A stretch of DNA of 6,109 bases, taken from contig CAJOOL010000004.1 in NCBI GenBank assembly GCA_905236115.1, positions 1 to 6,109 of the forward strand, read 5' to 3'. Shown one piece after another: positions 1 to 6,109 of the stretch (position 1 is its first letter; each line of letters starts with the position of its first letter). The DNA is from an uncultured Endomicrobiia bacterium (GTDB lineage: Bacteria > Elusimicrobiota > Endomicrobiia > Endomicrobiales > Endomicrobiaceae). Both the position numbers and the translations under genes were made by a program. The notes under the pieces were generated by a model. That model searched no databases, had not been told where the DNA came from, and saw only the letters and a program-made list of their open reading frames with translations.

Positions 1-33
1 AAGCAGGATAGGAAAAATCTTCTTATTCTGCTT
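1..33. terminator. Inverted repeat, probable terminator of an upstream gene
   Basis: Positions 1-14 pair with 20-33 to form a 14-bp stem, including two G-T pairs, with a 5-nt loop. The outer arms are AAGCAG and CTGCTT. The stem may continue beyond the left edge. Only a short, broken T-rich run follows (ctttctgtcgtt), so termination strength is uncertain. No coding region crosses it, which fits the 3' end of a gene outside the window. Confidence 0.4.
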
Positions 34-61
34 TCTGTCGTTCGCTAAACAATACAAAAAT

Positions 62-96
62 TTGACAAAATACACGATATATCATACAATATGATT
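62..96 (+). promoter_or_regulatory. Sigma-70 promoter of the toxin-antitoxin module
   Basis: A perfect -35 box TTGACA (62-67) is followed by exactly 17 bp and then TACAAT (85-90), one mismatch from the -10 consensus. Transcription would start about 7 nt later, near 97, which is the A of the second in-frame ATG of the toxin gene. The spacer contains the perfect 8-bp palindrome GATATATC (76-83). That is a natural place for the antitoxin to bind and repress its own operon, but the operator role is inferred from position. Confidence 0.75.
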
Positions 97-438
97 ATGA
101 AAAAAATATATTATTTTGCATATACAAACTTATATTTTAAGTGGTTTTCCAAACTTGATAAGGGCTATAAAATTATTATAAGAAAAGCTTTTGATGATTT
201 GAAAAAAGGAAAAACCGGGAAATTAAAACATTTAAAGAAAATTTTGTATGAATTAAGACTTGATTTAGGGAAAGGTATTAGAATTTATTTAATTCAAGAC
301 GGAAATACTTTAATAGTTATATTGAATGCCGGGGATAAGCAAACCCAGCAAAGAGATATAGATAAAAGTGAAGAGCTTATGGAAATATATTTGGATTTAA
401 AAACAAGAGGAGAACTGGAACAATGGCTAAAAAAATAA
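91..438 (+). CDS. RelE/HigB-like type II toxin (HI1419-type addiction module killer)
   Basis: This is a 115-residue protein, or 113 if translation starts at the second ATG (97). It resembles the RelE/ParE superfamily branch annotated as addiction module killer protein, HI1419 family; most toxins of this fold are ribosome-dependent mRNA endonucleases, but activity here is inferred. Family hallmarks are visible: a K-x-W-F-x-K-L segment near residues 17-22, a basic K-rich helix (38-50), the YELRLD strand (53-58) followed by G-x-G-I-R-I-Y (60-66), and the signature GDKQTQQRDI (81-90). K83, R88 and R64 are candidate basic RNA-contacting residues. No Shine-Dalgarno sequence precedes either ATG. The promoter abuts the gene, so the transcript probably begins at or next to the start codon at 97. 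Its 3' end overlaps the antitoxin by 16 bp. The pair looks more AT-rich than cinA downstream, consistent with acquisition by transfer. Confidence 0.88.
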   Translation: MIMKKIYYFAYTNLYFKWFSKLDKGYKIIIRKAFDDLKKGKTGKLKHLKKILYELRLDLGKGIRIYLIQDGNTLIVILNAGDKQTQQRDIDKSEELMEIYLDLKTRGELEQWLKK

Positions 439-800
439 AAAAACTTTTAATTTCTCAAGAAGAATTTGATAAAAAATTTTTTTATGGCGATATGGAAGCC
501 GTAAAATTATATATTAGAGAAAGTCTAAAAGAATATACGCAGGATCATGACAGAAAAAGCTTGTTTGAAAGTTTGTTTACAGCCATAAAATGGAGCGGAA
601 TAACAAAATTTGCAAAAAAAATAGGTATGTCAAGATCCGGACTTTACGATGCTTTAATCAGAAAAAATGCAAATCCGAGTTTTGATACTCTTGAAAGGAT
701 TTTTAGAGGTTTAAATATAAGACTTAATTTTGATATAACCGATATTGAAGACGAACCGAAAGAATATAAATCTTCCCAACAATATCAATATGCGTATTGA
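423..800 (+). CDS. HigA-like HTH antitoxin (HI1420-type)
   Basis: This 125-residue antitoxin partners the preceding toxin. It matches the addiction-module antidote family HI1420. The N-terminal half carries an acidic helix, including A-V-K-L-Y-I-R-E-S-L-K-E (26-37), corresponding to the family's 'YL..AL' region that binds the toxin. The helix-turn-helix lies at about 60-101: ITKFAKKIGMSRSGLYDAL, then NPSFDTLERIFRGLNIRL. These antitoxins neutralise the toxin and, through the HTH, repress the shared promoter. The likely target is the palindrome at 76-83. The start codon lies inside the toxin gene and is preceded by AGGAG (408-412) with 10-nt spacing, so the two are translationally coupled. The C-terminal tail (110-125) is hydrophilic and Q/Y-rich. 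Toxin-first order is normal for this family. Confidence 0.88.
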   Translation: MAKKIKKLLISQEEFDKKFFYGDMEAVKLYIRESLKEYTQDHDRKSLFESLFTAIKWSGITKFAKKIGMSRSGLYDALIRKNANPSFDTLERIFRGLNIRLNFDITDIEDEPKEYKSSQQYQYAY

Positions 801-802
801 TA
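783..802. other. Hairpin overlapping the antitoxin stop codon
   Basis: TATCAATA (783-790) and TATTGATA (795-802) form a perfect 8-bp stem with a TGCG tetraloop. The antitoxin stop codon (798-800) lies inside the 3' arm. Downstream DNA is only moderately T-rich (ttcctgtttctg), so this is at best a weak terminator. It could instead protect the mRNA 3' end, or be chance in AT-rich DNA. Confidence 0.35.
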
Positions 803-819
803 ATTCCTGTTTCTGTACT

Positions 820-904
820 TACCGGCATTAATTAATTTAAATATTTAAGGAAACGCTGATTAATTTTGAACGAAAATAAAAGTATCAAGGCGTTGCCGCC
901 GGTA
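820..904. repeat. Non-coding gap with nested inverted repeats upstream of cinA
   Basis: The gap 801-975 has no gene. TACCGGC (820-826) is complementary to GCCGGTA (898-904). Nested inside, AACGC (852-856) is complementary to GCGTT (890-894). A 12-bp perfect palindrome, TTAAATATTTAA, lies at 837-848. The right part is more GC-rich than its surroundings. It could be the remnant of a small mobile element, a structured leader, or coincidence. No transposase fragment is visible. Confidence 0.3.
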
Positions 905-975
905 CAAAACAAGTGATGTCTTCTCTAAAGGCAGGCTAAATAGTATAGCTTAAAAAACACAAAAGGACGGTAGAA

Positions 976-2253
976 ATGAATATAGAATTAATTTGTTCCG
1001 GCAGCGAACTTTTAACCGGTAAACTTAACACCCACGCAGGTTTTATCGGCGGAAAATTAAACGATTTGGGCTTAAATCTTTCTCTTGTAACAACGGTCGC
1101 AGACAGGAAAAAAGAATTTTCTGCAGTCCTTGAAGATGCGGTCAGAAGAAGTTCCGTTATCATCGTAACCGGGGGATTGGGACCGACTTTTGACGACATA
1201 ACCGTAGAAACCGTTTCGGAAATATTAAACGTGGATACTTACAAAGACGAAAGCGTTCAAAAATCCATAGTTCAGTATTTTGAAAAAAGAGGCATATCAA
1301 ACCCCGCACAAAACAACGAAAGACAGGCACAAATTTTAAAAGGTGCCAAAGTTTTGGAAAACAGGTTCGGCACGGCTCCCGGACAGATGCTTCATTTTCA
1401 GTATAACGTTGACGAAAATAAAAAAGTAAGAAAGACCATATTTTTACTTCCCGGACCGCCTAAAGAAATGTGCCCGATGTTTGAAGAAAATGTCATTCCC
1501 TTTATGAAAAGTTATCAGGCGAAAATTAAAAAAACTTTGGTTCTTCATATATGCGGTATGGCGGAATCTCTGGTAGACGAAAAAATCAAGCCGACCATAG
1601 ATTACCTTGCAAACAATGATGATATAGAGTTTGCAATTCTCGCACATAAATATTTGATAGACGTGAAAGTTTCCGTCAGCGGTGAAAATGAGCTGACTAT
1701 TGACGACACCATAAAAAATATCAATCAGGAATTTATCAATGTCTTGGGCGATAACATATACGGTTATAATTCCGATACGCTTGAGGGCGTTGTGCAGAAA
1801 ATGCTGATTGAAAAAAAACAGACCGTTTCCGTTGCGGAATCCTGCACGGGCGGAATGCTGGCGGCAAAACTGACCGACACCGCAGGAAGTTCAAACTGTT
1901 TTAAAATGTCTGTGGTTACTTATTCCAACGAATCAAAAATGCAGCTGCTTGATGTTAAAAATGAAACGCTGGAAAAGTTCGGTGCCGTAAGCGTTGAAAC
2001 CGCCAAAGAAATGCTGGACGGAATAATAAATCTTTCAGGTGCGGATTTTGCGGTAAGCATTACAGGTATTGCAGGTCCCGGAGGCGGCACGAAAGATAAA
2101 CCTGTCGGACTGGTTTACATAGGCACATCGTTTAAGGGAAAAAATGAAGTAAATAAGTTTCTTTTTTTGGGAACCAGACAAGATATCAGGGAGCGGGCTG
2201 TCAACGTCGCACTGGACTGCCTGAGAAGATTGATACTGAAACAGCAACTCTAG
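976..2253 (+). CDS. cinA: CinA family nicotinamide-nucleotide amidohydrolase
   Basis: This is a full-length 425-residue two-domain CinA, of normal family length. The N-terminal molybdopterin-binding-like domain (COG1058) starts with CSGSELLTG (7-15). It continues with TGGLGPTFDDIT (65-76) and LLPGPPKEM (157-165). In some homologues this domain hydrolyses ADP-ribose. The C-terminal PncC domain (about 270-420) carries AESCTGG (287-293), with the conserved Ser289, and GIAGPGGG (364-371). It deamidates nicotinamide mononucleotide to nicotinate mononucleotide, recycling the by-product of NAD-dependent DNA ligase. The protein is cytoplasmic, with no signal peptide. The start is supported by AAAGGA (962-967) with 8-nt spacing. 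A weak promoter, TTCTCT (921-926) and TATAGC (944-949) with a 17-bp spacer, may serve it. Repeat copy A begins 3 nt after the stop. The name reflects competence induction in other bacteria; no competence link is visible here. Confidence 0.96.
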   Translation: MNIELICSGSELLTGKLNTHAGFIGGKLNDLGLNLSLVTTVADRKKEFSAVLEDAVRRSSVIIVTGGLGPTFDDITVETVSEILNVDTYKDESVQKSIVQYFEKRGISNPAQNNERQAQILKGAKVLENRFGTAPGQMLHFQYNVDENKKVRKTIFLLPGPPKEMCPMFEENVIPFMKSYQAKIKKTLVLHICGMAESLVDEKIKPTIDYLANNDDIEFAILAHKYLIDVKVSVSGENELTIDDTIKNINQEFINVLGDNIYGYNSDTLEGVVQKMLIEKKQTVSVAESCTGGMLAAKLTDTAGSSNCFKMSVVTYSNESKMQLLDVKNETLEKFGAVSVETAKEMLDGIINLSGADFAVSITGIAGPGGGTKDKPVGLVYIGTSFKGKNEVNKFLFLGTRQDIRERAVNVALDCLRRLILKQQL

Positions 2254-2255
2254 CC

Positions 2256-2285
2256 TGTCATCCCCGAATGTTTCTGTCGGGTCAC
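2256..2285 (+). repeat. Interspersed 30-bp palindromic repeat, copy A (degenerate right arm)
   Basis: The left arm TGTCATCCCCGA matches copies B, C and D, but the right arm reads TCGGGTCAC instead of TCGGGGATC. Only CCCGA/TCGGG can still pair, so this copy looks decayed. It starts 3 nt after the cinA stop. A TTGCCGTT tail like those following copies B and C occurs at 2298-2305, but at a longer distance. Confidence 0.7.
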
Positions 2286-2310
2286 TCGCAGTTGTCGTTG
2301 CCGTTCCGTT

Positions 2311-2340
2311 TGTCATCCCCGAGTGTTGTTGTCGGGGATC
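2311..2340 (+). repeat. Interspersed palindromic repeat, copy B
   Basis: An intact copy with a perfect 8-bp stem: ATCCCCGA (2315-2322) pairs with TCGGGGAT (2332-2339) around a 9-nt loop. It differs from copy D at one position in 30. The tail TTGCCGTTT starts at 2347, at the same spacing as in copy C, so the mobile or conserved unit is nearer 45 bp. It lies 48 bp upstream of the ruvX start codon. Confidence 0.85.
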
Positions 2341-2388
2341 TCGCTTTTGCCGTTTATTGTACATTATACATTGTCACTTGGAGTTTTC

Positions 2389-2808
2389 ATGAGGTATCTC
2401 GGTATAGATTATGGGAAAAAAAGAATAGGACTTGCAATGTCGGATATTATGGGCATAATGGCACAGCCTTTTGACGTAATAGAAAGTAAAGGTCTTAAAA
2501 ACAATGTTGAAAATATTTTAAAAATTGCCAAAGAAAAAGAAGTCTCTTGTATCGTGGTCGGCAAGCCCGTTAATATGAATGCCACTGAGGGAGAAATGGC
2601 GGAGCTTGCGGCCGAGTTTGCGGAAGAATTAAAAAAATTTACCGATATAAAAATAGAAATGATAGACGAACGTCTTACCACCGCTCAAGCTGAGCGTGTA
2701 TTAATAGAAGAAGCCAATCTTTCCAGAGAAAAAAGAAAAGGTTTGAAAGATAAACTCGCCGCCGCTTTTATCCTTCAAACATATCTTGACATTCACAGTA
2801 GTTTTTGA
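2389..2808 (+). CDS. ruvX: RuvX/YqgF family RNase H-fold nuclease
   Basis: This 139-residue protein is of normal length for the YqgF/RuvX family, known as putative pre-16S rRNA nuclease or Holliday-junction resolvase-like protein. The family is implicated in maturing the 5' end of 16S rRNA and has resolvase-like activity in some species. Motifs visible are GIDYGKKRIGLA (5-16) with acidic Asp7, VVGKPVNMNATEG (56-68) with Glu67, DERLTT (93-98), and a C-terminal D-K-L-A-A-A-F-I-L (121-129) with Asp121. These acidic residues form the expected metal-binding active site. The reading frame stays open upstream to a GTG inside repeat copy B, but the ATG at 2389 is chosen. It is preceded by GGAG (2380-2383) and puts the conserved GIDYG motif at residue 5. 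ruvX lies 135 bp after cinA on the same strand and is convergent with the XRE gene. Confidence 0.94.
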   Translation: MRYLGIDYGKKRIGLAMSDIMGIMAQPFDVIESKGLKNNVENILKIAKEKEVSCIVVGKPVNMNATEGEMAELAAEFAEELKKFTDIKIEMIDERLTTAQAERVLIEEANLSREKRKGLKDKLAAAFILQTYLDIHSSF

Positions 2809-2824
2809 TGTTAGTCTTTACGTC

Positions 2825-2854
2825 TGTCATCCCCGAATGTCTCTGTCGGGGATC
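2825..2854 (+). repeat. Interspersed palindromic repeat, copy C
   Basis: An intact copy with stem ATCCCCGA (2829-2836) and TCGGGGAT (2846-2853), lying between the convergent ruvX and XRE genes. Its TTGCCGTTT tail (2861-2869) reaches the stop codon of the XRE gene (complement of 2869-2871). The hairpin could slow polymerase from both sides, but no T-tract follows on either strand, so it is not a standard intrinsic terminator. Confidence 0.85.
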
Positions 2855-2868
2855 TTGTTGTTGCCGTT

Positions 2869-3210
2869 TCACCGTTCCTTTTTCAGCATAGCAATTTCCG
2901 TCTCAAGTCTTTTCATTTTCTCTTCCAGAAAATCCAATCTCAGCTCCGTAGCATTTTTTTTATCTTCAGTATTTTTGCTCTTTTTTATATTTGTTTCTTT
3001 CCCCGTAATTGTCGCAGCCAACTCTTCAAAAGAAATATCAAAACCTTTTGCAATCTTTTCTATTGTAGAAATTTTCGGTTCATATTTTCCGCTCATTATT
3101 GCAGACAATGCAGGCTGAGATATTCCCGCCTTTTTTGCAAACTCGGTCTGCGTCAACCCTTTTTCTCTTAAAAGTTTTAATATGACAAGATAAATATTTT
3201 TTTTAGTCAT
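2869..3210 (-). CDS. XRE-family HTH transcriptional regulator with C-terminal coiled coil
   Basis: This is a 113-residue DNA-binding protein of the Cro/C1 (HTH_3) type. The helix-turn-helix domain spans about 6-65: TQTEFAKKAGI (20-30) forms helix 2 and the turn, SQPALSAIMSGK (31-42) is the recognition helix, and ISTIEKIAKGFDISFEEL (47-64) is the usual closing part. A Lys/Asn-rich linker (71-87) joins it to a predicted amphipathic coiled coil at 90-112. The heptad pattern there is L92, L95, M99, L102, I106, L109, suggesting dimer formation. The start codon has no clear Shine-Dalgarno sequence. The gene is divergent from the promoter and candidate RNA to its right. The dyad at 3244-3281 is a good candidate for its operator, which would give autoregulation plus control of the divergent transcript. 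No partner toxin is visible, so this is not an obvious toxin-antitoxin pair. The ligand and targets are unknown. Confidence 0.88.
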   Translation of the reverse strand: MTKKNIYLVILKLLREKGLTQTEFAKKAGISQPALSAIMSGKYEPKISTIEKIAKGFDISFEELAATITGKETNIKKSKNTEDKKNATELRLDFLEEKMKRLETEIAMLKKER

Positions 3211-3234
3211 TTTACCGGTTTAAATAAAAAAACA

Positions 3235-3263
3235 TTGACTTTTTTATTAGAATATCTTATAAT
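3235..3263 (+). promoter_or_regulatory. Near-consensus sigma-70 promoter for the candidate RNA
   Basis: TTGACT (3235-3240), a 17-bp spacer, and a perfect TATAAT (3258-3263). Predicted transcription start is near 3270. It faces away from the XRE gene toward the structured region and the pilin gene. Its -10 box lies in the palindrome TTATAATTATAA, which also offers TATAAT to the opposite strand (3267 to 3262), upstream of the XRE gene. Confidence 0.7.
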
Positions 3264-3300
3264 TATAAAAAATACTAATAATTATAATACAAGCTAATAA
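3244..3300. promoter_or_regulatory. Dyad operator candidate between XRE gene and divergent promoter
   Basis: TTATTAG (3244-3250) and CTAATAA (3275-3281) are inverted copies whose centre, 3262.5, is exactly that of the 12-bp palindrome TTATAATTATAA (3257-3268). Overall 16 of 19 position pairs in the 38-bp block are complementary. A further CTAATAA half-site occurs at 3294-3300. Placement over the -10 elements of both directions suggests a repressor site for the adjacent XRE protein. AT-richness raises the chance background. Confidence 0.5.
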
Positions 3301-3448
3301 AAATAATTTATACAAAAAACAAATAAGCCGAGCATGATGTTTCATAGCAGCAGCTTGTAAGAAAGATAAATATTTTGGCAAAGATTTTATCTTCTCGGCT
3401 AGTATACCAAAAAACGGAAATTTTTGGTATGGCTGAGAAGCTCTTTTT
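3270..3448 (+). ncRNA. Candidate structured RNA (leader/attenuator or sRNA), unclassified
   Basis: No Rfam-type family was recognised. Starting about 7 nt after the TATAAT and ending at a U-tract, the transcript would be near 180 nt. The 5' third is A/T-rich and unstructured. Stem P1 pairs AGCCGAG (3326-3332) with CTCGGCT (3394-3400). Inside it lie a small hairpin P2, ATGA/TCAT (3334-3345), and a long hairpin P3. P3 pairs AAGATAAA (3363-3370) with TTTATCTT (3386-3393), plus a further 5 bp to a GGCA loop. P3 ends directly against P1, allowing coaxial stacking. The 3' strand of P1 and the last three bases of P3 are also the 5' strand of the terminator stem, so the two folds exclude each other. 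That is typical of cis-acting attenuators and riboswitches, but a stand-alone sRNA is equally possible. The next gene on this strand is the pilin, 163 nt beyond. Confidence 0.5.
3391..3448 (+). terminator. Rho-independent terminator ending the candidate RNA
   Basis: CTTCTCGGCT (3391-3400) pairs along its whole length with GGCTGAGAAG (3431-3440), allowing two G-U pairs. Above a 3-nt bulge (3401-3403), ATACCAAAAA (3404-3413) pairs perfectly with TTTTTGGTAT (3421-3430) around an ACGGAAA loop. CTCTTTTT (3441-3448) follows immediately. Without the lower 10 bp the remaining hairpin is not adjacent to the U-tract, so forming P1 should weaken termination. Confidence 0.65.
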
Positions 3449-3452
3449 CGCC

Positions 3453-3482
3453 TGTCATCCCCGAGTGTCGTTGTCGGGGATC
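3453..3482 (+). repeat. Interspersed palindromic repeat, copy D
   Basis: An intact copy with stem ATCCCCGA (3457-3464) and TCGGGGAT (3474-3481), starting 5 nt after the terminator U-tract. It is in opposite orientation to copy E inside the pilin gene, and the two are complementary at 26 of 30 positions. Confidence 0.85.
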
Positions 3483-3499
3483 CCTCAGTGGTCTTTGGT

Positions 3500-3540
3500 C
3501 GTCATTGCGAGGAGCCGTAGGCGACGAAGCAATCTTGCAG
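3500..3540 (+). repeat. GTCATTGCGAGG-type dispersed repeat
   Basis: The sequence begins GTCATTGCGAGGAG, continues GCGACGAAGCAATCT, and matches from memory a dispersed intergenic repeat found in many unrelated bacteria. ATTGC (3504-3508) pairs with GCAAT (3529-3533), and GCC/GGC (3514-3522) forms an inner mini-stem. Its function is unknown. Confidence 0.65.
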
Positions 3541-3553
3541 TTTGAAAAGAGGA

Positions 3554-3575
3554 ATCCGAGGGATTAGCCTCGGAT
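3554..3575 (+). promoter_or_regulatory. Perfect 8-bp hairpin in the pilin 5' leader
   Basis: ATCCGAGG (3554-3561) and CCTCGGAT (3568-3575) form a perfect stem with a 6-nt loop. An unstructured A-rich stretch follows it, up to the ribosome-binding site. There is no T-tract, so it is not a terminator on this strand. Such 5' hairpins can stabilise mRNA. A protein-binding site is the alternative. Confidence 0.4.
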
Positions 3576-3598
3576 AATATAAAAAAATAAAAAACAAA

Positions 3599-3611
3599 AA
3601 GGAGAATAATT
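3599..3611 (+). promoter_or_regulatory. Strong ribosome-binding site fixing the pilin start
   Basis: AAGGAG (3599-3604) lies 7 nt before ATG 3612 in an A-rich, open context. It matters because it supports the long 36-residue prepilin leader. The internal ATGs at residues 7, 11 and 15 would still include the repeat-derived residues. Confidence 0.8.
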
Positions 3612-4130
3612 ATGAAAAAACTTAAACAGATGTATAGATGTATGGAAGAAAGGATGTATAGAAACGGCAAAACAACGGGATGCCCGACAAAGACATTCGG
3701 GCATGACAGACGGTGTGGTTTTACGTTGGTGGAGTTGGTAATCGTTATCGCCATAGTTATTATTTTGTCAGTCGTCAGCGTTCCAATCTATAGGGGATAC
3801 GTTGATAAGGCAAAATGGTCTGAGGTATATGCTTTGACAGGAACAATATTATCTGCTCAAAAATCTTATTATAGCGAATATGGAAATTTCTTGATTTACG
3901 CTGATGGAGTAGGTGGCTGGACAAATTATGATACAATTCTGGGAATAGATACTCGAGGAAATAAATATTTTACTTATTTTAAAGCAAGTATTTATTCTGA
4001 TTCAAAAAATTGTTTTAAAGCAAGAATAATGTTGCCGATTGAACTACAACGTAATGATAAAGATAGATTAGCATTTAATTATAACATATCAACAGGTGCA
4101 GAATTTAAAGAAATTAATTCAAACGATTAA
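3612..4130 (+). CDS. Type IV pilin-like prepilin with repeat-containing long leader
   Basis: This is a 172-residue prepilin. The class III signature CGFTLVELVIVIAIVIIL (35-52) predicts cleavage and N-methylation by PilD-type prepilin peptidase after Gly36. The mature protein would be 136 residues with Phe at +1 and Glu at +5 (E41). Residues 37-59 form the hydrophobic N-terminal helix that anchors the subunit in the inner membrane and packs in the fibre core. The following helix (about 60-90, VDKAKWSEVYALTGTILSAQ) and a variable C-terminal domain complete a small major-pilin or pseudopilin fold. The mature part has one cysteine (C134), so the disulfide loop of many type IV pilins is absent. 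The leader is 36 residues, much longer than usual, and residues 23-33 (GCPTKTFGHDR) are encoded by an in-frame copy of the interspersed palindrome. The 3' half and trailer are visibly more AT-rich than the 5' third. No other pilus gene is nearby, so pilus versus secretion or uptake pseudopilus cannot be decided. Confidence 0.9.
   Translation: MKKLKQMYRCMEERMYRNGKTTGCPTKTFGHDRRCGFTLVELVIVIAIVIILSVVSVPIYRGYVDKAKWSEVYALTGTILSAQKSYYSEYGNFLIYADGVGGWTNYDTILGIDTRGNKYFTYFKASIYSDSKNCFKARIMLPIELQRNDKDRLAFNYNISTGAEFKEINSND
3679..3708 (-). repeat. Interspersed palindromic repeat, copy E, inside the pilin gene
   Basis: Read on the minus strand, the 30 bases match copies B-D. The one stem pair that differs has changed on both sides: ATGCCCGA pairs with TCGGGCAT, against ATCCCCGA/TCGGGGAT. 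Being 30 bp long, it keeps the reading frame and adds ten residues to the prepilin leader, upstream of the cleavage site. Confidence 0.85.
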
Positions 4131-4260
4131 TGTTTAATTTATATAATACATAAATGTTTTCGCAGAAATAATGTTATTTTTTAAATTTTAAATAAAAAAT
4201 TTTATAAAAATTAAATTTATTTTAACATTTAGTATTGCTAGATTTTTACTTAAAATTTTA

Positions 4261-4304
4261 CTGCAAAAAAATCAACAGGATTGCTACATAGCGGCAATCT
4301 GCAG
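4261..4304. other. Hairpin in the pilin 3' trailer
   Basis: GATTGC (4279-4284) pairs with GCAATC (4294-4299) around a 9-nt loop, and CTGCA (4261-4265) with TGCAG (4300-4304) encloses it with an asymmetric bulge. It lies one base upstream of the terminator. The preceding 4131-4260 is AT-rich with nothing else recognisable. Confidence 0.4.
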
Positions 4305-4343
4305 AAAAAGAGGCGGTTATCATAAAAAGTTCCGCCTCTTTTT
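4305..4343. terminator. Bidirectional rho-independent terminator (pilin / pckG)
   Basis: AAAAAGAGGCGG (4305-4316) and CCGCCTCTTTTT (4332-4343) form a perfect 12-bp stem with a 15-nt loop. The GC-rich core is flanked by A's on the left and T's on the right, so it can terminate both the rightward pilin transcript and the leftward pckG transcript. Confidence 0.9.
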
Positions 4344-4397
4344 CAACCATTATTTTTTCCGCCGTTTCAACTTTTCAACTCTTCAACTATTCAACTT
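4342..4397. repeat. Phased 8-bp TTCAAC microsatellite after pckG
   Basis: TTCAAC recurs at 4366, 4374, 4382 and 4390, an exact 8-bp period giving four tandem units. A fifth copy at 4342 is 24 bp upstream and so in the same phase, with the intervening units degenerate. The array touches the pckG stop codon. On the coding strand of pckG it reads as GTTGAA units. Confidence 0.8.
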
Positions 4398-6109
4398 TAC
4401 TTATTAAACTTCGCTTTCAGGTCGTCAAGCTGTTTTCTAAGAGCTTCCGGCAGTCTGTTGCCGAACTTGGCATAAAATTCTTCTATCAAAGGAATTTCTT
4501 TCTGCCATTCTTCTTTGGAAACTTTAAAGAGTTTTTCCAAAGTTTCTTTGGATATATCCAGCCCCGATAAATCCATATCTTCTATCTTCGGGAACAAACC
4601 GATTTCTTTTTCTTCAGCTTGGACTTTTCCCTCAATTCTGTCAATCATCCATTTCAACACTCTGGAATTATCTCTGAAGCCAGGCCACATAAAGTGCCCG
4701 TCTTCGTCTTTTCTAAACCAGTTTACCATAAATATTTTGGGAAGATGTTTTGCTCTTTTTGCAAAGCTCAGCCAATGGCCGAAATAGTCGCCCATATTGT
4801 AACCGCAGAAAGGCAGCATTGACATAGGATCTCTTCTGACTGTTCCCTCTTTACCTGCTGCAGCCGCCGTAGTTTCCGAACCTATAATTGATGCATCAAA
4901 CACACCGTTTTCCCAGCTTGTGCTCTCATATACTAAAGGAATTGTGGATTTTCTTCTTCCGCCGAAAATGATACCGGAAATAGGAACTCCTTGAGGGTCG
5001 TCAAATTCCTTTGCAAGCGTCGGGCAGTTGTATGTAGAAACCGTAAATCTTGAATTTTTATGTGCGGCAACTTCACCGGAATTTTTATCATATTTTTTTC
5101 CGTGCCAGTCAATTAAGTTTTCCGGAGTTTCCGAATATCCTTCCCACCAAGGGGTATTGTCGTCCGCATTAACCGCGGTATTCGTATACAACGTCGGGAA
5201 GAACTTATTATTTTTCAAAGTTTCAACCATTATGGGATTGGTATTTTTGCCCGTTCCGGGTGCTACGCCGAAAAAGCCCATTTCAGGGTTCATTGCATAT
5301 AGTCTTCCGTCGGGACCAATATTTATCCAAGCAATATCGTCACCCAATGTCCAAACCTTATAACCTTTCAAAACAGGGTTCAACAAAGCAAGGTTTGTTT
5401 TTCCGCATGCTGACGGGAAAGAACCCAAGAAATAAGTTCTCTTACCTTTAGGGTCTTCAACACCGATAATAATCATGTGTTCTGCCAGCCAGCCCTCTTT
5501 GTAGCCCAAATAAGAACCTATTCTTAAAGAACAGCATTTTTTACCTAAAAGAGCGTTTCCGCCGTAACCGGAACCGAAACTCATAACAAGGTTTTCCTGC
5601 GGAAAGTGCATAATATATCTTCTTTCCGGATTGACATCGCCGATAGAGTGCATACCTTTGAAGAAGTCGTCGGAATTACCGATTTTTTCAACGGCAACTT
5701 TTCCGGTTCTTGTCATAATTCTCATACTTAATGCTACATAAACGGAATCGGTAACCTCAACACAGCATTTTGAATAAGGCGATTTAGGACTGCCCATAAG
5801 GAAAGGAATAACATACATCGTTCTTCCTTTCATACAGCCTTTAAACAGTGCATTTAATTTTTCTTTTGCTTCTTTCGGATCCATCCAGTTGTTGTTGGGA
5901 CCTGCGTCTTCTTTGTTCGGCAGACAGATAAATGTCAACTGTTCCGTTCTTGCAACATCGTTAGGGTTTGATCTGTGCCAATATGCTCCGAAAAATTCGT
6001 CTTGATTTAATTTTTCCAAAACAGGATGTCCGTCAATCTGTTCTTTCTCGCCGATTTCAACGAGTTTTTTTGCTTCCTCGTCGGAACCGTCCATCCAATA
6101 TACTTTGTC
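4397..6109 (-). CDS. pckG: GTP-dependent phosphoenolpyruvate carboxykinase (N-terminus outside window)
   Basis: 570 codons plus stop are visible. The frame stays open to the right edge (DKVYW precedes the ATG at 6094), so that ATG is internal and a short N-terminal part is missing from a protein usually near 600 residues. It interconverts oxaloacetate plus GTP with phosphoenolpyruvate, CO2 and GDP in the cytoplasm. In fermenters it can run either for gluconeogenesis or as a CO2-fixing, GTP-forming step toward succinate. Numbered from the ATG at 6094, visible motifs are GSGYGGNALLGKKCCSLRIG (174-193), the P-loop FPSACGKTNLALL (226-238) with the reactive Cys230 characteristic of the GTP-type enzyme, GDDIAW (251-256) as kinase-2 metal site, and NPEMGFFGVAPGTG (269-282). 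GGRRKSTIPLVYE lies further on. No frameshift is seen. It is convergent with the pilin gene and shares the terminator at 4305-4343. Confidence 0.96.
   Translation of the reverse strand, partial: DKVYWMDGSDEEAKKLVEIGEKEQIDGHPVLEKLNQDEFFGAYWHRSNPNDVARTEQLTFICLPNKEDAGPNNNWMDPKEAKEKLNALFKGCMKGRTMYVIPFLMGSPKSPYSKCCVEVTDSVYVALSMRIMTRTGKVAVEKIGNSDDFFKGMHSIGDVNPERRYIMHFPQENLVMSFGSGYGGNALLGKKCCSLRIGSYLGYKEGWLAEHMIIIGVEDPKGKRTYFLGSFPSACGKTNLALLNPVLKGYKVWTLGDDIAWINIGPDGRLYAMNPEMGFFGVAPGTGKNTNPIMVETLKNNKFFPTLYTNTAVNADDNTPWWEGYSETPENLIDWHGKKYDKNSGEVAAHKNSRFTVSTYNCPTLAKEFDDPQGVPISGIIFGGRRKSTIPLVYESTSWENGVFDASIIGSETTAAAAGKEGTVRRDPMSMLPFCGYNMGDYFGHWLSFAKRAKHLPKIFMVNWFRKDEDGHFMWPGFRDNSRVLKWMIDRIEGKVQAEEKEIGLFPKIEDMDLSGLDISKETLEKLFKVSKEEWQKEIPLIEEFYAKFGNRLPEALRKQLDDLKAKFNK

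Follow-up and report, generated by a model that had tools for sequence, protein, structure and literature searches.

The 1.4-Mb genome of an uncultured Endomicrobiia bacterium carries at least 59 units in which a predicted leader RNA is associated with pilin genes, and the best conserved part of this RNA is the loop CAUAGC, which is found again on a separate hairpin after the pilin gene. We propose, with a probability of about 0.5, that the CAUAGC loop is the binding site of one shared trans-acting factor setting the expression of the whole pilin repertoire. The analysis started from a window of 6,109 nt (assembly GCA_905236115.1, contig CAJOOL010000004.1, positions 1 to 6,109 of the forward strand), and the genus of the bacterium would be Candidatus Ruminimicrobiellum (Endomicrobiaceae). 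The features of the window are collected in Table 1.

Table 1. Coordinates of the leader RNA, its unit and the downstream hairpins in the window.
Feature	Position	Strand	Basis or remark
Divergent XRE-type regulator gene	2869..3210	-	Pfam HTH_3, E 1e-16
Sigma-70-like promoter TTGACT-17-TATAAT	3235..3263	+	11/12 matches
Inverted repeat over the -10 box, predicted XRE operator	3241..3303 (arms 3241-3266 and 3278-3303)	.	p 0.01 vs dinucleotide shuffles
P1	AGCCGAG 3326-3332 with CTCGGCT 3394-3400	+	closes the predicted leader RNA 3326..3400
P2 hairpin, weak in the window copy	3334..3356	+	loop motif CATAGC at 3343-3348
P3	3363-3370 / 3386-3393	+	fold
Terminator hairpin competing with P1 and P3	3391..3448	+	tail CTCTTTTT at 3441-3448
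Pilin ribosome-binding site AAGGAG	3599..3604	+	sequence
Pilin gene with N-terminal methylation motif	3612..4130	+	Pfam N_methyl, E 2e-6
Second CAUAGC hairpin, after the pilin gene	4278..4300 (stem 4278-4284/4294-4300, CATAGC 4287-4292)	+	model R2 match, E 3e-4 in own genome
Terminator-like hairpin right after the 3' CAUAGC hairpin	4304..4344	+	4270-4350 folds with z -6.7

Structure and copies of the leader RNA

The first-pass annotation had described P1, a 20-bp terminator stem followed directly by a U-tract, a strand shared by both and a near-consensus promoter upstream. All of these elements were recovered, coordinates and shuffle tests being in agreement: the terminator stem is formed by 3391-3400 and 3404-3413 with 3421-3440, with a 3-nt bulge, and its lower half (3391-3400) is also the 3' strand of P1 and the end of P3. 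Folding of the 3270-3448 region gave -38.8 kcal/mol (z -3.5), a value equalled by none of 200 shuffles. The terminator hairpin gave z -5.4 (0/200 shuffles) and the P1-P3 domain (3323-3402) z -2.5 (3/200), and the same domain with the upstream leader (3266-3402) reached only z -1.7 (9/200). For the leader of one relative folded alone (L150), z was -1.4 and 18/200 shuffles equalled it, many shuffles thus folding as well. Search of the window with the Rfam 15 covariance models returned three chance-level matches, far under gathering and none at the feature, and 18 related loci had zero matches at gathering level, known riboswitch classes included. These searches are compatible with the earlier annotation, in which no known class was recognised.

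Blastn analysis of the own genome highlighted 42 places, corresponding to the window, 39 other copies and two antisense self-images. The R1 covariance model, built from 29 own copies, gave 58 matches in the same genome and, with one additional copy at a contig end, 59 units were retained. Among 294 genomes of the phylum, R1 matches were detected in the own genome (G000), G004 and G008 only, in a scan with stricter filters and 13 candidates scored per genome by which weak copies can be missed. G004 is Candidatus Ruminimicrobiellum caprinum RGIG1474 from goat abomasum and G008 is Red_deer_4_mag_78; at E 0.05 they yielded 20 and 22 matches, respectively. The element is known from three MAGs only, the own MAG being 80% complete. 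The relatives' units derive from 48 matches, of which nine were dropped (by eye, six 3' hairpins and three noise-like) and 39 kept; two of the kept units, L160 and L165, sit at pilin 3' ends. A pattern scan of named genomes detected 24 stretches, 7 of them in two Endomicrobia records, and the other 17, in unrelated taxa, were taken for chance. An origin from a mobile element was rejected, one pattern scan of viral contigs having given no match. The printed pilin leaders of the congeners G003, G006 and G010 showed no such element by eye. No description of the element was found in the literature on Elusimicrobia/Endomicrobia genomes, pilins, RNAs or pilin multigene families, a search outside which most subscription journals lay.

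Covariation in the relatives had been put forward in the first-pass annotation as a check of the fold. In the relatives' alignment, 107 two-sided changed cells were counted versus 27.9 in shuffles, and the changes affect P1, P2 and P3; the relatives' sequences did not train the model, the alignment was fitted to it and includes nine rows not counted as units. In the 39 kept rows, P1 has two two-sided changes, P2 and P3 more. Additional P1 pairs beyond the model were present in 86/114 cells of the relatives versus 76.6 expected (p 0.002), and were not above shuffles in the own copies. The own copies alone gave 5 two-sided changes versus 1.2 in shuffles and were not above shuffles by the other measures, their little covariation being due to the fact that they are too alike. 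The view of an unclassified structured RNA ahead of a pilin gene is thus upheld, two relatives keeping it with compensatory changes.

A divergent XRE-type gene was present upstream of the RNA in 58/58 own units with 500 nt upstream and in 34/36 relatives' units, the two exceptions being L160 and L165, and a pilin gene was present downstream in 23/23 own units with 700 nt downstream and in 34/35 of the relatives. The XRE and pilin profiles used here derive from the window and the first own loci, and all loci were scored with them; Pfam analysis of a sample of ten confirmed HTH_3 in 5/5 and N_methyl in 4/5. A promoter-like site was found upstream of 52/58 own and 32/38 relatives' copies, versus 8.4 and 5.4 in mononucleotide shuffles, although sigma-70-like sites are not rare in the window (22 found vs 18.0 expected). 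Among promoter inverted repeats, 42/97 reached p 0.05 versus shuffles (about 5 expected) and the other 55 did not; their sequence differs from locus to locus. The XRE proteins are strongly divergent (median identity 29%). With their divergent XRE genes and their own inverted repeats, the units appear to be selected at the promoter. Median identities over the 22 own units compared were 83% for the RNA, 90% for the first 40 residues of the pilin, 46% for the rest of the pilin and 32% for the XRE protein. Since the RNA has stayed 83% identical while XRE proteins and pilin bodies diverged, it seems to answer to something common.

Two other repeated elements were observed. Dispersed repeats TGTCATCCCCGA..TCGGGGATC occupy 2249-2300, 2304-2355, 2818-2869 and 3446-3497 of the window; an inverted copy (3671-3712) lies inside the pilin frame, before the methylation motif, so that a repeat seems to have been incorporated into the prepilin leader. 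The window (3549-3577) and many own copies also contain a second hairpin, with varied stems, a short distance upstream of the ribosome-binding site of the pilin: GAGGAA-CCGAGG..CCTCGG-ATAA, or a longer form of it. This hairpin was not noticed in the printed stretches of the relatives.

The CAUAGC loop in leaders and after pilin genes

The CATAGCA sequence was invariant in 32/32 aligned own copies. Exact CATAGC was present in 58/59 own units, the exception being cut by a contig end, and in 37/39 relatives' units, 11 of which contain two or three CATAGC. The conserved core is a 9-nt loop, NACAUAGCR, atop stems of varying sequence; one class of own copies carries a further hairpin within the CATAGC loop. 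A loop sequence kept on differing but paired stems, as observed here, is what is expected of a regulon read by a loop-binding factor.

The same loop was found past the pilin stop codon. CATAGC occurs within 160 nt of it in 19/21 own and 15/34 relatives' genes, versus about 2% in shuffles, and a strict hairpin in 19/23 own and 12/34 relatives' genes. In several relatives, the long 3' CAUAGC hairpin has a T-rich tail and resembles a terminator in its own right. When 6-mers were compared as loops on perfect six-pair stems, CATAGC had the highest count in both sets of loci, own and relatives'; ranked by the fraction of its occurrences, it was 1st in the relatives' loci and 6th in the own loci, where the 6-mers ahead of it probably come from dispersed repeats. 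The 59-row hairpin alignment was picked for pairing, so that a pairing test on it is circular, and the 6-mer loop and post-stop tests are less selected. Near the units, 51 hairpins follow the transcription direction and one lies against it, but the 51 include leader hairpins by which the units had been defined, and double counting may affect a few two-unit loci.

The hairpin model matched the own genome 57 times at E 5. For 70 whole-genome hairpin matches with loci, 64 followed a pilin gene, 2 belonged to a leader and the remaining 4 were no more than about 180 nt from a contig end, any such hairpin of the locus near a pilin, the matched one or another, being accepted in this placement. With 64 of the 70 after pilin genes, the hairpin resembles an RNA tag carried by pilin mRNAs. 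At E 0.02, 44 matches were found in the own genome, 48 in G008 and 61 in G004, and 0 in eight other congeners; pilin-motif matches numbered 63, 70 and 93 in the three carriers versus 1, 3, 4, 5, 8, 9, 9 and 14 in the eight congeners without the hairpin. Among these 11 genomes, RNA tag and pilin expansion go together. One congener without the RNA (G003:C5; L238, L241, L244, L247, L253, L258) has a tandem pilin row, versus the dispersed units described here.

In G008, a separate multicopy element of about 340 nt was observed (L160:1268-1608, L165:2724-3061, L169:3349-3684 and L154:2767-3042). It has no evident long frame in the translated stretches, is divergent from the pilin in all four cases, roughly at the place of the XRE gene, and its strand opposite to the pilin bears a CAUAGC hairpin in the three copies examined. 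It could be a sponge RNA.

The terminator arm and possible alternative functions of the RNA

In the first-pass annotation, the shared strand was regarded as a hallmark of attenuators and riboswitches. In a device of this kind, the P1-P3 domain would bind a small molecule, and the ligand would decide between P1 and the terminator. The leader position, the multi-stem fold closed by P1 and a terminator exclusive with the upstream stem in the window copy are in agreement with such a device, and the conserved loop could belong to a pocket. To follow the terminator across copies, 51 own and 32 relatives' copies could be assessed, which leaves out 7 units of the relatives and 8 own units, 5 of them cut and 3 lacking an anchor. 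In the own copies, 24 have an arm competing with P1, 8 the inner palindrome only and 19 neither, and at least 5 consecutive U follow the competing arm in 4 of the 24, the window included. In the relatives, the competing arm is absent throughout: 31 copies are without palindrome and 1 has the inner one alone; a ribosome-binding site comes soon after P1 in many of their copies, and in most of those shown. The proposed competition therefore stands for the window copy and is not supported as a general mechanism, not being kept across copies and relatives. In addition, the loop hairpin stands alone after pilin genes, and more than 50 copies before one gene family, with none seen elsewhere, would be unlike a metabolite sensor. 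A ligand-binding function is, for these reasons, judged unlikely.

The palindrome would have arisen in the own lineage via inverted duplication of the stretch CTTCTCGGC to CCAAAAA, and it may act as an attenuator where a U-run comes after. Real attenuation at the window copy is conceivable, at odds of roughly one in three. The tip of the terminator hairpin is CTCCG in L060 and CGGAG in many other own copies, as if the loop were inverted.

The stems could also be passive, shielding both ends of abundant pilin mRNAs from decay without any dedicated factor, the loop having spread with the copying of the pilin gene. Hairpins are indeed present at both ends, several of the 3' hairpins are themselves terminator-like, and copying is plausible given the 83% identity of the RNA. 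However, end protection should not fix the loop sequence while the stem changes, and divergence is much greater in the neighbouring genes than in the RNA, so that we give this explanation little chance.

A free-standing terminated sRNA was the other possibility raised at first; it would be a multicopy family acting in trans with its variable part as the targeting end. A stretch of about 180 nt is indeed bounded in the window by a promoter-like site and a terminator, and the P3 loop differs between copies; such an sRNA is nevertheless improbable, given the pilin downstream of every own unit with room, the relatives' copies without the window's terminator, most of those shown having a ribosome-binding site soon after P1, and a P3 loop whose pairing with its own transcript is not better than with the transcripts of other units. 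This loop (14-25 nt; 3371-3385 in the window) is far more variable than the P3 stem among own copies, and the loops are somewhat alike (identity 0.44 vs 0.29 shuffled). A role of the P3 loop as a guide or kissing loop was rejected, since in three stretches the own transcript had no clear advantage in pairing over the transcripts of other units (t -0.43, -0.42 and -1.92).

A proposed shared factor and two-level control of the pilin repertoire

A shared trans-acting factor recognizing the CAUAGC loop appears to be a better fit than either simple protection of the ends or an aptamer for a metabolite, since the loop is fixed on free stems, occurs alone after genes and was seen with one gene family only. 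The factor could be a protein that binds RNA or an sRNA with the complementary sequence GCUAUG, and it would act on mRNA stability, translation or read-through. Known loop readers were rejected: CsrA and RRM gave no match in 11 congeneric genomes (the CsrA control was positive in 3/14 and the own MAG is 80% complete). Concerning a trans sRNA, a promoter-like stretch by one pilin (L071) contains the CAUAGC complement, and among 285 loci it was found only there and in L193, at the same place; compared with Rfam, the L071 stretch gave a chance-level match only and none at gathering, and this candidate was not retained. GCUAUG-loop hairpins in the fetched loci were also discarded, being mostly antisense images of CAUAGC hairpins; the one repeated case is the separate G008 element.

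In the proposed mechanism, the XRE protein of each unit, by repressing its own promoter, likely decides whether this promoter fires. When present, the shared factor would bind the CAUAGC loops and keep P1 closed. In the window copy, closed P1 would block the 20-bp terminator and RNA polymerase would reach the pilin gene; in relatives without the terminator, the factor would protect the mRNA or promote translation. The shared RNA would thus gate the whole pilin set after selection at the promoter level. That presence of the factor turns the pilin on is a guess, made because P1 forms first and excludes the terminator in the window. Under this scheme the shared factor would likely tune the whole repertoire and the separate regulators choose single genes. 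More broadly, and only tentatively, two codes can be envisaged for the at least 58 units of the 1.4-Mb genome: a private XRE repressor for each pilin, many with a private operator, and CAUAGC nonaloops at both mRNA ends, read by a factor of a new class, that gate all of them. Pilins would then be expressed selectably, possibly one at a time, by a presumed associate of rumen ciliates.

Several known systems offer partial models. In the CsrA/RsmA regulon, GGA-loop hairpins in many mRNAs are read by one protein. The likeness lies in a short conserved loop carried by stems whose sequence is free, frequently more than once per transcript and in many mRNAs; here, in contrast, the loop is NACAUAGCR, of nine bases, and is restricted to one gene family, at both ends, in genomes where the CsrA search was negative. 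LicT/BglG, TRAP and PyrR are RNA-binding proteins reading leader attenuators, and the window copy could likewise be a protein-bound leader hairpin choosing between antiterminator and terminator, but the terminator is absent in the relatives and in half of the own copies and the loop also occurs after the gene. Repressors of the XRE/Cro-C1 type have a divergent target with an operator repeat, as found here with an HTH_3 gene divergent from its likely target and an inverted repeat at many promoters; unlike them, at least 58 parallel units with divergent XRE proteins share one genome, one common RNA and a pilin wherever checked with room.

For gonococcal pilE, the available part of the report (PMC3547852) describes a G4-associated cis sRNA which starts gene conversion from silent copies to one expressed locus. 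A small noncoding transcript beside a pilin gene and many pilin copies are common to both cases, the RNA being predicted here; the present units differ in having their own promoter-like site and start codon. These promoter-like sites and pilin frames speak against silent pilin copies. According to the accessible portion of PMC11257099, pilins are the sole cell appendages encoded in the family of Ruminimicrobiellum, and Candidatus Ruminimicrobiellum may live with rumen ciliates; in the section consulted of PMC8809381, pilins of termite-gut Endomicrobium are considered in connection with DNA uptake. Attachment to varied surfaces, or else DNA uptake, would be a fitting role for a large repertoire of individually switched pilins.

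If the proposal of a shared factor is correct, it would represent an RNA regulon, in a bacterium, that serves a single family of surface proteins and uses one loop at the two ends of the mRNA, and it predicts an RNA-binding factor not yet known. It would also concern small genomes keeping 60-90 pilin genes, in which the choice among many pilins by a host-associated bacterium becomes testable. Elsewhere in the window, the 91-800 region contains a toxin-antitoxin-like gene pair, coding for a Gp49-like protein and a HI1420-type antidote.
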